From positions 95,684-144,394 of the forward strand of contig NZ_LMHZ01000013.1 in assembly GCF_001428545.1 (NCBI RefSeq): a stretch of DNA of 48,711 nucleotides. The letters run 5' to 3'. Positions 6,130 through 10,264 of the stretch are shown here, one piece after another. Positions within the stretch are counted from its first letter, which is position 1; every line of letters begins with the position of its first letter. This DNA comes from Noviherbaspirillum sp. Root189. GTDB taxonomy: Bacteria > Pseudomonadota > Gammaproteobacteria > Burkholderiales > Burkholderiaceae_D. The notes beneath the pieces are model-generated. The model was not told where the DNA came from. It saw only the letters and a list, made by a program, of their open reading frames with translations, and did no database searches. The translations under genes were made by a program, and so were the position numbers.

Positions 6130-6171
6130 TTGCCAAGCCTGTTAAGTTGGACAATAATCTAAATAAGAATT
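6130..6171 (+). promoter_or_regulatory. Candidate hemP promoter with Fur-box-like site
   Basis: TTGCCA (6130-6135) and AATAAT (6153-6158) are separated by 17 bp, a good sigma-70 match. The -10 overlaps an AT-rich element at 6153-6171 that matches about 11 of 19 positions of the classical Fur consensus. HemP genes are commonly iron-repressed by Fur. The site is inferred by eye only. Confidence 0.5.
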
Positions 6172-6196: not shown

Positions 6197-6388
6197 ATGG
6201 ACCGACTTACTGAGCAGAAGACAGGCACGACCTCGTTGACCGGTGCGACTACGGATTCCGATGCACGCATAGTGCGAATTAAAAGTGAAGACCTGTTGCA
6301 GCAGCAGCGTGAACTGGAGATAGATCACCACGGCCGGATTTACCGGCTGCGCCTGACTCAGTTGAACAAACTGATTCTGACGGCCTGA
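6197..6388 (+). CDS. hemP: Hemin uptake protein HemP
   Basis: 63 residues from the ATG at 6197 with AAGGA upstream. The in-frame ATG at 6170 lacks a ribosome-binding site and falls inside the promoter-like region. The C-terminal half, ending GRIYRLRLTQLNKLILT, is the HemP signature. HemP is a small cytoplasmic protein tied to haem/iron uptake; in some proteobacteria (as HmuP) it activates haem-uptake genes. Its neighbours bfd and bfr support an iron role. No TonB receptor or haem ABC transporter lies in this window. Confidence 0.9.
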   Translation: MDRLTEQKTGTTSLTGATTDSDARIVRIKSEDLLQQQRELEIDHHGRIYRLRLTQLNKLILTA

Positions 6389-6884: not shown

Positions 6885-7100
6885 ATGATTGTATGTGTTT
6901 GCCACAACGTCTCTGAACGCAAAATCCGCCAGGCCGTCGATGAAGGCCTCACTACGATGCCGCAATTGCGCGAAAAACTGGCGGTCGGTACCTGCTGCGG
7001 CAAATGTCATTCCTGCGCAAAGACCGTGCTGCGTGAAGCGCTGGAAGAACGTGAAATGGAAGGGCAACCCATCATGTTTCAGGCAGCGATCGCCGCATAA
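6885..7100 (+). CDS. bfd: Bacterioferritin-associated ferredoxin (Bfd)
   Basis: 71 residues. It has the Bfd [2Fe-2S] cysteine pattern: CVCHNVSE near the N-terminus and GTCCGKCHSC around residues 36-45. Bfd docks on bacterioferritin and passes electrons to the core haem so that stored Fe3+ is released as Fe2+. Its usual partner, bfr, is 2.7 kb downstream on the same strand, with the quorum-sensing cassette in between. Bfd genes are usually induced in iron starvation; I see no clear Fur box directly upstream. Confidence 0.94.
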   Translation: MIVCVCHNVSERKIRQAVDEGLTTMPQLREKLAVGTCCGKCHSCAKTVLREALEEREMEGQPIMFQAAIAA

Positions 7101-7464
7101 TCAGCCTGACACACGTCGTTTCGGGAGTGGGCCATAGCACCGCGTCCCCTCCCCTCACGCGGGATCGAAGAACAACTGTCTTCCTCCGATCCTGGCTTTC
7201 CGACGATTCCGGAATACAGGTGATGTGGTCACTGCATGTCTTGCATTCCGCGCATTCCGTCCTTCCACTTGTCGGCCCCGCTACAGCCCCACTACCATCC
7301 GCTTGATGCTTGGTGCACACCGCTTATCCCACCTCTTTATGACTGTCCGACACTGCCCGGCGGCTTGTCAAAACTGACAGTCGTCAACTGCGGCAACCTT
7401 ACCTACAATTTGCATCATTCTGAACTACCCCTGTCGACGTTTGCCAGTATGAGCGTGCTTCGCC
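7101..7464. other. Non-coding region between bfd and the RsaM-like gene
   Basis: 364 bp. The left part (7101-7360) holds nothing I can name; a short frame at 7236-7496 has no ribosome-binding site and an uninformative translation. The right part contains the lux-box promoter described at 7364-7409. Confidence 0.6.
7364..7409 (+). promoter_or_regulatory. Lux-box promoter upstream of the RsaM-like gene
   Basis: TTGTCAAAACTGACAG (7365-7380) fits the lux-box form of two 4-bp half sites around 8 bp, ending in a perfect ACAG. A -10 match TACAAT lies at 7404-7409. The box centre is 31.5 bp before the -10, so it would be centred near -43, the classical position where LuxR-type activators overlap the -35. 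The box closely resembles the one at 7903-7920. Binding is inferred. Confidence 0.65.
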
Positions 7465-7896
7465 GTGGACATCTACTTATCCCATCGCCCCGTTGAGCAT
7501 CGGCTGCCACGCATGTCGCCCGATGGTTATGTTCGACTGCCATTGCGCAGCCTCGCTTCAGTGCCATTCGTACATCTGTTTTCCCATACCGACACAGATT
7601 TCCTGGAAGATCTCAGGGATAGCTCCATTGCTGTCAGCACGGCGGGTTTCTCCGAATGGAAAAGCGAAACACGACCGGATATCTCCCTTGGGTGGGGATG
7701 GTTTATCCAGTCGCAATCCGGACAAGTATTGCTCGCACCGGACGGGGTGCGCAGCAACCTGATGCTGATCGACACAACCGGTTACGACCTGGGACCGCTC
7801 AGGACTTCCAGTCTGCTGCACACCTGGCTCCAGGGGTTCGAGTGGCAAGGTGCGGTGAAAAGCGCATTGGATAAGGATAGCGCCGGTTCATTCTAG
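7465..7896 (+). CDS. RsaM-like quorum-sensing modulator (DUF4902 type)
   Basis: 143 residues from the GTG at 7465; an ATG at 7513 would give 127 residues and is also possible. Neither start has a strong ribosome-binding site. No signal peptide or membrane segment. Core motifs are GYVRLPL, TAGFSEW, LGWGWF and LAPDGVRSNLMLIDTTGYDLG. From memory these resemble the RsaM/DUF4902 family, which sits beside luxI/luxR genes in Burkholderia and in plant-associated pseudomonads and usually restrains AHL production. Position directly before luxI, and a lux box in its own promoter, support that reading. The family assignment is fairly confident; the repressive role is inferred. Confidence 0.75.
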   Translation: MDIYLSHRPVEHRLPRMSPDGYVRLPLRSLASVPFVHLFSHTDTDFLEDLRDSSIAVSTAGFSEWKSETRPDISLGWGWFIQSQSGQVLLAPDGVRSNLMLIDTTGYDLGPLRTSSLLHTWLQGFEWQGAVKSALDKDSAGSF

Positions 7897-7902
7897 AGGT
7901 TG

Positions 7903-7949
7903 CCTGTCAACTTTAACAGTTTCCAAAGAATGGGCCGCAGCGATTTAAT
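7903..7949 (+). promoter_or_regulatory. Lux-box promoter upstream of luxI
   Basis: CTGTCAACTTTAACAG (7904-7919) is a perfect CTGT-N8-ACAG lux box, extended to C..T on the flanks. A -10-like TTTAAT is at 7944-7949, 32.5 bp from the box centre, almost the same as in the promoter of the RsaM-like gene. It begins 7 bp after that gene's stop. AAAAGGGA about 6 bases before the luxI ATG is the ribosome-binding site. Confidence 0.75.
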
Positions 7950-7979
7950 GCACTCGGGCAACCACAAAAGGGACCGAAC

Positions 7980-8660
7980 ATGCACACAATCTTTGGCAGA
8001 TTTAATCTATCTTTTCCGGATATCGAAACTGCTCTCGCCCAGTACCGGCATAAGATCTTCATTGAGCGACTCGGTTGGCCGCTGCCGGTGGAAAATGGCC
8101 TGGAACGCGACCAGTTCGATCATCAAAACACCTTTTACGTGATCACCCGCGAACCGGACGGCGCCATCTGCGGTTGCGCCCGCCTCCTTCCAACGACAGA
8201 ACCTTATCTCCTGAGCGAAGTGTTTCCCCATCTGCTGGCGGACATGCCGGCACCCCATGCGCACGATGTTTGGGAACTGTCGCGCTTTTCCGCTGCACCA
8301 ATCGACGCCGCCTCGGCAGTCGATCTTGCGTTGAATACCCGTACTTTGCTTGCTGCCGCCGTGAGAAGCGCGATGGAACTGGGGGCCAGACGCCTGATCA
8401 CGGTATCGCCCCTCGGCATCGAACGCCTGTTGCATCGTATGGGCGTGCATGCACACCGGGCCGGCCCACCGGCGCTGGCGGACGGCAAACCCATCTTTGC
8501 ATGCTGGATCGAGATAGACGATATGACCTGCATCGCCCTTGGCATCGAGCAGGAGCTTCAACACGATAATCCGCAGCACATCAATAACCTGCGGTACGCC
8601 ACGTACCCCCAGTCGCCGCTTGAGCGCACCATCCATGCAGCCCCCGCTGCTACCGCATGA
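7980..8660 (+). CDS. Acyl-homoserine-lactone synthase, LuxI family
   Basis: 226 residues. It makes an N-acyl-homoserine lactone from S-adenosylmethionine and acyl-ACP (or acyl-CoA). All canonical LuxI positions are present: R23, F27, W33, D44, D47, R68, E99 and R102, in the motifs YRHKIF, DQFD, CARLLPT and WELSRF. The threonine/serine region that influences acyl chain choice cannot be interpreted by eye. The gene has its own lux-box promoter and lies head-to-tail between the RsaM-like gene and luxR. The resemblance is to SolI/CepI-type synthases, but I would not assign the signal molecule. Confidence 0.95.
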   Translation: MHTIFGRFNLSFPDIETALAQYRHKIFIERLGWPLPVENGLERDQFDHQNTFYVITREPDGAICGCARLLPTTEPYLLSEVFPHLLADMPAPHAHDVWELSRFSAAPIDAASAVDLALNTRTLLAAAVRSAMELGARRLITVSPLGIERLLHRMGVHAHRAGPPALADGKPIFACWIEIDDMTCIALGIEQELQHDNPQHINNLRYATYPQSPLERTIHAAPAATA

Positions 8661-8734
8661 CCTCGGCGCATCGATAGGCGACCTCTCCTGCGCTGAATGC
8701 TGAGCATGCCACCAAATCAAGGTTAAAGTTGCTA

Positions 8735-8762
8735 TTGCCATACTTGTCATCTATGCAATAAT
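8735..8762 (+). promoter_or_regulatory. Possible luxR promoter
   Basis: TTGCCA (8735-8740) and AATAAT (8757-8762) are spaced 16 bp apart, 23 bp before the luxR start. No lux-box-like dyad is visible here, so luxR may not be autoregulated. Read by eye only. Confidence 0.4.
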
Positions 8763-8785
8763 GCCCGTTCGCGGGAGGTATAAGC

Positions 8786-9499
8786 ATGGAATGGTGGCGG
8801 GAAGATCTGTTGGGCGCATTGCTGGAGCGTGAATCGGAACACCAGCTGTTCGATCGGGCGGCCGGCATGGCGGCCGCAATTGGTTTCGAATATTGCGCAT
8901 ACGGCATCCAGATACCCGTGCCGATATCGCGCCCGAGTGTCACGATGTTCAGCAATTACTCCCGCCAGTGGCAGAGCTGCTATCACGAGCGCAACTACCT
9001 GCACGTGGACCCGACCGTACGACACGCTTTGCAATCCACCTTGCCGGTAGTGTGGTCCAATAGCCTGTTCGCCAATGCACAGGAAATGTGGGAGGATGCG
9101 CGCGAGCATGGTTTGAAATTCGGATGGGCGCAATCCTCACGCGATGCTCGTGGGAGCGTAGGCCTGCTGACACTCGCCCGCAGCACCGAACAGCTGTCAG
9201 AATGCGAACTTCATGCGAACCAGCCAAGAATGGTCTGGCTGACTCAGTGTATCCATGCCGCCATGTCAGAACGTCTGACCCCGAGGCTCGCTCCCGAGAC
9301 GCAGGTTGGTATTACGGCCCGGGAAAAAGAAGTCCTGCGCTGGACTGCCGAAGGGAAAACCGCATCTGAAATCGCGCAGATCCTGGTCGTGTCCGAACGT
9401 ACGATTAACTTCCACATCAGCAACATCGTCACCAAGCTTGGCGCCTCCAACAAAACCCAAGCCGCCGTCAAAGCCACCGCGCTCGGCCTGCTTTACTAG
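8786..9499 (+). CDS. AHL-responsive LuxR-family transcription activator
   Basis: 237 residues. The N-terminal ~165 residues are the autoinducer-binding domain. TraR-numbered W57, Y61, D70, P71 and W85 correspond to W62, Y66, D75, P76 and W90, all at conserved spacing. The C-terminal GerE-type helix-turn-helix starts at ITAREKEVLRW and continues SEIAQILVVSERTINFHISNI. The ribosome-binding site GGGAGG is clear. It lies 125 bp after luxI in the same direction, so it is the likely cognate receptor that binds the two lux boxes upstream. Confidence 0.95.
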   Translation: MEWWREDLLGALLERESEHQLFDRAAGMAAAIGFEYCAYGIQIPVPISRPSVTMFSNYSRQWQSCYHERNYLHVDPTVRHALQSTLPVVWSNSLFANAQEMWEDAREHGLKFGWAQSSRDARGSVGLLTLARSTEQLSECELHANQPRMVWLTQCIHAAMSERLTPRLAPETQVGITAREKEVLRWTAEGKTASEIAQILVVSERTINFHISNIVTKLGASNKTQAAVKATALGLLY

Positions 9500-9793
9500 G
9501 GTACGCAGTTGATTAAGGGCAATTAAGAGCGGGCCAAAAATTTCCGTCAATATACATCGCACACTACCGCCGCTCACTTGGCGGCACAATTCCAGGCGGA
9601 AATCAAACCACGGCTTTAACGCAATGACTTCGACTTGAGCGTGCATGGCAACTGGATGCAGTTTCCCTGTGAATGGAAAAAGCATCATGGTTGATGGAAA
9701 AAACGACATGGTGCGCTATCATGGATGCCTGACAACCGGACGAACTGGCATCGACAGGTTCGCCGCCCCTAAGACATGACTGCAGAGGACTCC
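9500..9793. other. Intergenic region luxR-bfr
   Basis: About 294 bp with no gene. A weak dyad CCGCCG...TTGGCGG near 9567-9585 could terminate luxR but has no T-tract. No lux box or clear Fur box is visible before bfr. Confidence 0.4.
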
Positions 9794-10264
9794 ATGAAAG
9801 GCGACCCGAATATCATCAGGCTGCTCAACGCACAGCTGACCAACGAACTGACTGCAGTAAACCAATACTTTCTACATGCGCGAATGTATCGGCACTGGGG
9901 CTTCGGCAAGATCGCCAAGAAGGAATACGAAGAATCAATCGGCGAAATGAAGCATGCCGATAACCTGATCAATCGTATCCTGATGCTGGACGGACTACCC
10001 AACCTGCAGGCGCTGCACAAGCTGATGATCGGTGAGTCAACGCCGGAAATGCTGGAATGCGACCTGAAGCTGGAACAGGCGTCACAGCAAACCGTCAAGG
10101 ATGGCATCAAGGCATGCGAAGCTACGGCAGACTTCGTGTCACGAGAAATCCTGCGTGATATCCTCGAAGACACCGAAGAGCACATCGAATGGATCGAAAC
10201 CCAGCTTGACCTGATCAACACGATAGGTCTGCAAAATTATCTGCAATCCCAGATGGACGAATAA
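9794..10264 (+). CDS. bfr: Bacterioferritin (Bfr)
   Basis: 156 residues from the ATG at 9794 (CAGAGG upstream), giving the family-typical MKGD start; an upstream ATG at 9776 adds six unlikely residues. It would assemble into a 24-mer haem-containing iron-storage shell. Ferroxidase ligands E18, E51 and H54 and the haem-ligand M52 sit in NELTAVNQYF and GEMKHAD. The second ferroxidase half is in ECDLKLE and DTEEHIEWIETQ. Its electron donor Bfd is encoded 2.7 kb upstream, beyond the quorum-sensing cassette. A hairpin terminator follows. Confidence 0.96.
   Translation: MKGDPNIIRLLNAQLTNELTAVNQYFLHARMYRHWGFGKIAKKEYEESIGEMKHADNLINRILMLDGLPNLQALHKLMIGESTPEMLECDLKLEQASQQTVKDGIKACEATADFVSREILRDILEDTEEHIEWIETQLDLINTIGLQNYLQSQMDE

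Follow-up and report, generated by a model that had tools for sequence, protein, structure and literature searches.

Lux-box-like dyads at like promoter positions ahead of an rsaM-like gene and luxI in Noviherbaspirillum sp. Root189: candidate LuxR operators and their conservation in relatives

Gene content of the locus

The DNA considered here is a stretch of 48,711 nucleotides from Noviherbaspirillum sp. Root189 (contig NZ_LMHZ01000013.1), with this whole stretch hereafter described as the window. Between positions 6197 and 10264 of the window are found, in order, hemP, a small gene without a Pfam match, bfd, an rsaM-like gene, luxI, luxR, and a ferritin-like gene, here bfr. The features upon which the following is based are these:

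7365..7380, no strand assigned: lux-box-like dyad ahead of rsaM, TTGTCAAAACTGACAG; left end without the C of CTG
7381..7386, + strand: -35-like hexamer TCGTCA, immediately following the rsaM dyad and separated from TACAAT by 17 bases
7404..7409, + strand: -10 hexamer TACAAT, rsaM promoter candidate
7465..7896, + strand: rsaM-like gene (DUF4902), 143 aa, GTG start, stop codon at 7894-7896
7904..7919, no strand assigned: lux-box-like dyad ahead of luxI, CTGTCAACTTTAACAG; begins just beyond the rsaM stop codon (7894-7896)
7944..7949, + strand: -10 hexamer TTTAAT, luxI promoter candidate, at +25
7980..8660, + strand: luxI-type AHL synthase gene, 226 aa; PF00765, E 4.3e-25
8786..9499, + strand: luxR-type AHL receptor gene, 237 aa; PF03472 and PF00196; recognition helix SERTINFH

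PF00765, PF03472, and PF00196 all score above cut-off, that is, the synthase and receptor domains of a LuxI/LuxR AHL pair are present, with no second LuxI match in the genome at an E of 0.001 or lower. The luxR gene of the window lies downstream of luxI.

The rsaM-like protein matches PF16245 (DUF4902) with an E of 3e-36 (124.3 bits, versus a cut-off of 25) and also matches, over residues 8-135, the solved BcRsaM 4o2h (listing name BCAM1869; E 3.8e-25). Its gene is linked to luxI/luxR, as is the case for the RsaM family. Support for GTG at 7465 as the start comes from an alignment in which relatives align from residue 1 and have Met there. RsaM homologues have been described as having a four-Trp core (PMC8088503). 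The tryptophans of the window's protein are W65, W77, W79, and W127 and, among 20 aligned sequences, W79 is invariant, W77 and W127 are nearly so, and W65 is not. A class-wide search with PF16245 was of little use, matching 2 of 369 genomes, one of them that of the window.

Within 6885-10264 the rsaM-luxI-luxR cassette is flanked by bfd and bfr. Of the 14 other genomes of the genus, 11 have bfd adjoining bfr without the cassette, and for this reason the cassette looks to have been inserted in the window. Those 11 genomes include the five which have LuxI elsewhere, and in the rest of the 14 (L143, L145, and L151) no bfd was seen near bfr.

The dyads and their promoter elements

The initial annotation of this DNA described two similar 16-bp dyads, and both indeed are present as written. 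So too are the distances which it gave from dyad center to -10 start, i.e., 31.5 bp to TACAAT (7404-7409) and 32.5 bp to TTTAAT (7944-7949), with the -10 hexamers thus found 23 (rsaM) and 24 (luxI) bases beyond the dyads. Letters like TCGTCA, the -35-like hexamer which abuts the rsaM dyad, are seen by eye at the same place in close relatives. Those relatives, also by eye, have TTACCA or similar just after the luxI dyad, 17 bases before TGTAAT. Relative to the transcription starts that would be predicted from such -35 and -10 elements, the dyads are centered at about -42 to -46.

The likely interpretation of this arrangement is that the dyads are LuxR operators and that the LuxR of the window activates both rsaM and luxI, resulting in positive as well as negative feedback from one receptor. 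Alternatives to that interpretation exist, the most basic of which is that the dyads are chance matches, or instead are the sites of another regulator.

Chance expectations

With a loose pattern (3 mismatches) there are 92 matches in the window versus 89.8 expected. As loose matching thus shows nothing, strict scores and conservation were used instead. By weighted lux-box score the two dyads are the only window sites at 18.5 or above, out of 21, with 200 dinucleotide shuffles averaging 0.1 such sites and two or more being found in 1 of those 200. At a looser score level of 16 there are 7 window sites versus 6.4 expected. One site at that level, a weak lux-box-like CTGTTAAGTTGGACAA upstream of hemP (6139-6154), could alternatively be, by eye, a Fur site and was not accepted as a lux box.

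Over the 6.1-Mb genome the strict pattern has 10 matches at 7 places (5 matches with a control pattern), with two of these places being the dyads. The other five (L037 and L040-L043) have, by eye, no TANNNT at +24/25 on either side, and no further target is claimed for them. Those in L040, L041, and L043 are inside of open reading frames, and that in L042 precedes a gene which looks, by eye, to be LacI-type. This last site (L042:1501-1516) is a perfect palindrome, CTGTTAGCGCTAACAG, and more likely is the LacI-type-looking regulator's own operator rather than a lux box.

A chance origin, or service to another regulator, would be in keeping with loose-threshold matches being as frequent as in shuffles and with the strict pattern having other genome sites without an obvious target. 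Against it, however, are that the two strict matches are found in expected places, that their position and -10 are conserved, and that the LuxR helix is tracked by the letters of the boxes (below). With those in mind it seems exceedingly improbable that the dyads are chance matches or the sites of another regulator. Conservation is a stronger test here than are chance counts.

Conservation ahead of luxI

Of 392 genomes searched within the family, 29 have an rsaM match, counting that of the window. A contig scan with the single LuxI as query found no relative. Among the ten closest other loci (L003-L012) the luxI dyad is present in all ten and an rsaM-side box in nine, those nine including L009, in which letters have changed, and L005, in which the box is far upstream and lacks the usual -10. 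The tenth, L010, has on the rsaM side a right half-site and -10 only.

A wider set consists of 81 loci, i.e., the window plus the best 80 of 247 named matches. Conservation of both boxes in relatives had been suggested by the initial annotation as a check and, with this check run on the wider set, 79 of the 81 loci have a luxI dyad with CT..AG ends and 33 of 70 have an rsaM-side box (see next section). The median distance from the end of the luxI dyad to luxI is 63 bases. Because luxI dyads were chosen in a manner favoring CT..AG ends, the 79 of 81 is to be read against the same choice made on shuffled regions, which has such ends in 182 of 1620. Dyad scores of at least 10 are seen in 55 of the 81 loci versus 13 of 1620 shuffled regions. 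A hexamer matching TATAAT at no fewer than 4 of 6 positions is found at +23 to +25 from the luxI dyad in 73 of 79 loci (42 of 474 for control windows), and among these 73, the window included, it lies at +24 in 55 and at +25 in 18.

In 70 of the 81 loci, rsaM is upstream of luxI on the same strand. It might be that rsaM and luxI instead are one transcription unit, with the upstream dyad driving both, the luxI dyad adding to this, and brake and synthase not set separately. The rsaM stop codon indeed is followed within ten bases by the start of the luxI dyad and, with a simple scan having detected no terminator between the two genes, read-through from the rsaM promoter into luxI may occur as well. 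Where rsaM is missing upstream of luxI, however, as in 11 of the 81 loci (again, window plus best 80 of 247), the luxI dyad is present along with a -10 of at least 4/6 at +24/25 in 11 of 11, implying that luxI has its own promoter. By RT-PCR, furthermore, abaM and abaI of Acinetobacter baumannii form no operon (PMC8088503). We view a single unit as rather unlikely, and it is in any case compatible with, not opposed to, activation of both genes by LuxR.

The box ahead of rsaM

Boxes on the rsaM side were scored by their likeness to a locus's own luxI half-sites, as compared with 200 mononucleotide shuffles. By this measure 33 of 70 loci, the window included, have an rsaM-side box at no more than 2 of 200 shuffles and 40 of 70 have one at no more than 10 of 200, i.e., 37 and 30, respectively, miss these thresholds. 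These loci are not independent, with L085, L091, and L111 near-identical, and one of the 33, L115, was scored against a doubtful luxI dyad. The count is conservative, as the close relatives L059 and L061 have visible boxes yet miss even the threshold of 10 of 200. No rsaM box was found in the six loci of the non-Arg clade (L106, L107, L110, L121, L132, and L134; the Arg in question is considered below), in Chitiniphilus L103 and L113, nor in L064, L065, L067, and L068. Single loci without an rsaM box at 10 of 200 include, among others, L087, L088, L096, L098, and L114. The double-box design that is predicted from these comparisons is common, that is, rather than universal.

Two side observations pertain to this set of loci. 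L111 is a MAG contig labelled Kiritimatiellae, the LuxR of which differs very little from the LuxR of Rugamonas L085 (branch lengths of approximately 0.004), and this contig probably is misbinned. In L075, L076, L092, and L094 (Duganella and related) two rsaM genes are found in tandem after luxI, and two rsaM genes per system in such genera are noted as well in a review of RsaM (PMC10710839).

Which gene does the upstream box serve? In many relatives luxR is divergent from rsaM, with the box found between them. The upstream dyad might therefore be a relic of, or still be serving, a divergent luxR, i.e., in autoregulation or as a roadblock, with rsaM driven independently. The box indeed is located 17-35 bp before the luxR start in L058, L059, L062, L069-L074, L081, L083, L100, L118, L126, and L128. 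Of the 33 rsaM-side boxes, however, in the choosing of which the -10 played no part, 26 have TANNNT at +24/25 toward rsaM and none have it at that distance in the opposite direction (at +23, 3 of 33 versus 2 of 33), which also disfavors the upstream box as a luxR activator. With a stricter hexamer test, i.e., 4/6 to TATAAT, 19 of the 33 rsaM-side boxes pass versus 24 of 198 control windows.

Equally against service to a divergent luxR are those loci in which luxR lies elsewhere. Two such loci are the window and G100 (L003/L046), both of which have luxR downstream of luxI and yet have rsaM still accompanied by the box and its -10. Elsewhere with luxR downstream, the box of G173 (L010/L050/L057) is half lost, with the right half-site and -10 kept, and L068 has no rsaM box. 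The one-sidedness of the -10, together with the box staying with rsaM when luxR has moved, indicates that the upstream box, where present, serves rsaM. A relic of luxR control, or control of luxR in place of rsaM, seems therefore improbable. In the divergent relatives a roadblock on luxR, besides rsaM activation, is possible.

Unequal box ends

Though the initial annotation had these promoters as matched, that description applies to their geometry and not to their letters, as the rsaM box usually is without one terminal base that the luxI box keeps. Of the luxI boxes of the 33 loci, 32 retain C1 as well as G16, the two terminal bases, versus 10 of the rsaM boxes. The choices made for that first count could have favored intact luxI ends, and counting therefore was repeated with boxes chosen by inner letters only. 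Among the 31 loci which then qualify, both ends are kept in 31 of 31 luxI boxes and in 6 of 31 rsaM boxes, with exactly one end lost in 25 of 31 rsaM boxes and both ends lost in none. In the window's group it is the left end that is missing and in most other loci the right, with various letters found as replacements. With its box lacking one terminal base, and the luxI box intact, rsaM probably would need more active LuxR and thereby would follow the synthase.

The LuxR recognition helix and the letters of the boxes

A LuxR was found in 71 of the 81 loci (window plus best 80 of 247), with 69 of these used upon the dropping of L084, which has a frameshifted luxR, and L115, which has no clear luxI dyad. 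Where helix residue 3 is Arg, base 3 is G in both luxI half-sites (62 of 62 loci), and where that residue is other than Arg, base 3 is A (7 of 7 loci). A tree from which the helix columns were left out displays two changes of the helix-3 residue and two of the box base, and these are concordant. The association is not significant on the tree, as two independent changes are too few, with no fewer than 6 pairs required for a sign test to reach 0.05.

All 5 of the loci with Lys at helix position 6 have one or both half-sites with CC at bases 4-5. In L132 this Lys is combined with the non-Arg form, and there CC is found in one half-site only. A CC half-site is found without Lys in four loci, L106, L110, L121, and L134. 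Also considered was a rule of Thr at helix position 6 going with A at base 5, which was rejected given exceptions in L077, L090, L092, L101, L116, and L134.

QscR displays by alignment the same DxRTVKFH pattern, which ties helix positions 3 and 6 to TraR 203 and 206. Both QscR and CviR have Arg and Lys at the TraR 203/206 positions according to a review (PMC9654057), and the site of CviR is there quoted as CTGNCCNNNNGGNCAG. That CviR with Arg plus Lys is reported on such a site agrees with a helix-to-box rule.

In L053/L062, a MAG labelled Paucimonas, the helix is SAAT, versus SERT or similar in other loci. The luxI box there is CTAGCAAGTTTGCTAG and the rsaM box CTCACAATATTGCTAG, both of which are of CTAGCA/TGCTAG type. 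Helix, luxI box, and rsaM box thus all have changed, as would be expected if one LuxR reads both boxes, and this MAG represents a natural altered-specificity pair. Elsewhere, Chitinimonas L072 and L073 have boxes of their own CTGCCC type on both sides (p 1/200 and 5/200), and in L087 an own-type CTGCCC box was not found on the rsaM side. L133, the Pseudomonas fuscovaginae locus, has a CTGCCC luxI box and the helix DERTVKFH, with its rsaM-side box weak (9/12, p 6/200). In the seven Rhodanobacter-type loci (L069-L071, L074, L081, L083, and L100) two types fit the rsaM-side site equally well or almost so.

RhlR, which by alignment has Ser at helix position 3, binds a CTG-type box and would therefore be an exception to the rule. 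LasR binds a CTA-type box. With an Ala at helix position 3 (PMC9654057), LasR fits; a literature search for the letters of the LasR box found nothing. No LuxR helix-to-box rule was seen in the titles and abstract openings of the literature searched, though absence is not proven thereby.

Most likely, as judged from sequence comparison, one LuxR reads both sites. Shared LuxR control of rsaM and luxI, as the initial annotation had predicted, is thus supported by conserved position and geometry, by the -10 found on the rsaM side, and by the changing together of helix and boxes.

A more ambitious joint reading can be put forward tentatively, as a possibility that is somewhat less likely than not. 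That is, with geometry matched and strength mismatched, RsaM would be a delayed, higher-threshold brake family-wide, and LuxR would follow a partly modular helix rule at the TraR 203 and 206 positions. That rule is Arg with G at base 3, or otherwise A, and Lys with CC at bases 4-5, Asn being most often with TCA. If true, LuxR targets would be predictable from protein sequence.

The proposed circuit

Activation of both genes by LuxR would proceed as follows. AHL-bound LuxR (8786-9499) would bind beside each promoter's -35, centered near -43, and the bound LuxR would recruit RNA polymerase to rsaM and luxI. LuxI would amplify the signal and RsaM, by analogy with relatives, would hold AHL output down, with rsaM expected to fire after the synthase, i.e., as needing more active LuxR.

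The putative role of RsaM as brake is based on homology and on published work in other species, among which the sign of its action varies. The RsaM homologue tofM provides an example that not all act as brakes (PMC3527420), and a review, which gives the regulatory mechanism of RsaM as unknown, describes its effects as mostly negative but also positive (PMC10710839).

RsaM is a widespread quorum-sensing regulator, and comparison of these loci suggests that LuxR directly drives rsaM in many lineages, from a luxI-like promoter position and with one end of the box usually lost. The feedback design thereby becomes measurable, that is, in terms of which promoter fires first as AHL rises. Those loci in which the LuxR helix and both boxes have changed together should serve, in addition, as natural altered-specificity pairs for study of LuxR DNA choice.

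Comparison with known systems

The system most like that of the window is abaR/abaM/abaI of A. baumannii, in which a gene for an RsaM homologue is located between the receptor and synthase genes, and in which lux boxes are predicted ahead of abaM as well as abaI (PMC8088503). The abaM promoter is AHL-induced according to reporter data, AHL rises when abaM is lost, and the system has been termed an incoherent feed-forward loop (PMC8088503). In the window, too, boxes are found ahead of both the synthase and a putative brake, as in an abaM-type loop. The two systems differ in that abaR is divergent, versus a window luxR that is downstream of luxI, and in that the abaM box is described as being downstream of the predicted -35 and -10 (PMC8088503), whereas the window box abuts the -35, at what would be an activating position.

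Other RsaM genes, i.e., rsaM1 and rsaM2 of Burkholderia thailandensis and rsaM of P. fuscovaginae, similarly are luxI-linked and limit AHL (PMC5717390, PMC10710839, PMC11064508). In Pseudomonas aeruginosa, rsaL is found between lasR and lasI and thus also represents a receptor-induced brake beside a synthase, but RsaL differs in being an unrelated, DNA-binding repressor (PMC8088503, PMC10710839). The rsaM of Noviherbaspirillum is listed in the RsaM review as topology 4c (PMC10710839). The term 'lux box' has 0 occurrences in the text of that review, and promoter geometry is absent from those of its passages at hand.

The double-box design is already known from abaM/abaI. What comparison among loci adds to the initial annotation is the loss of one end from the rsaM box along with a candidate rule connecting LuxR helix to box.
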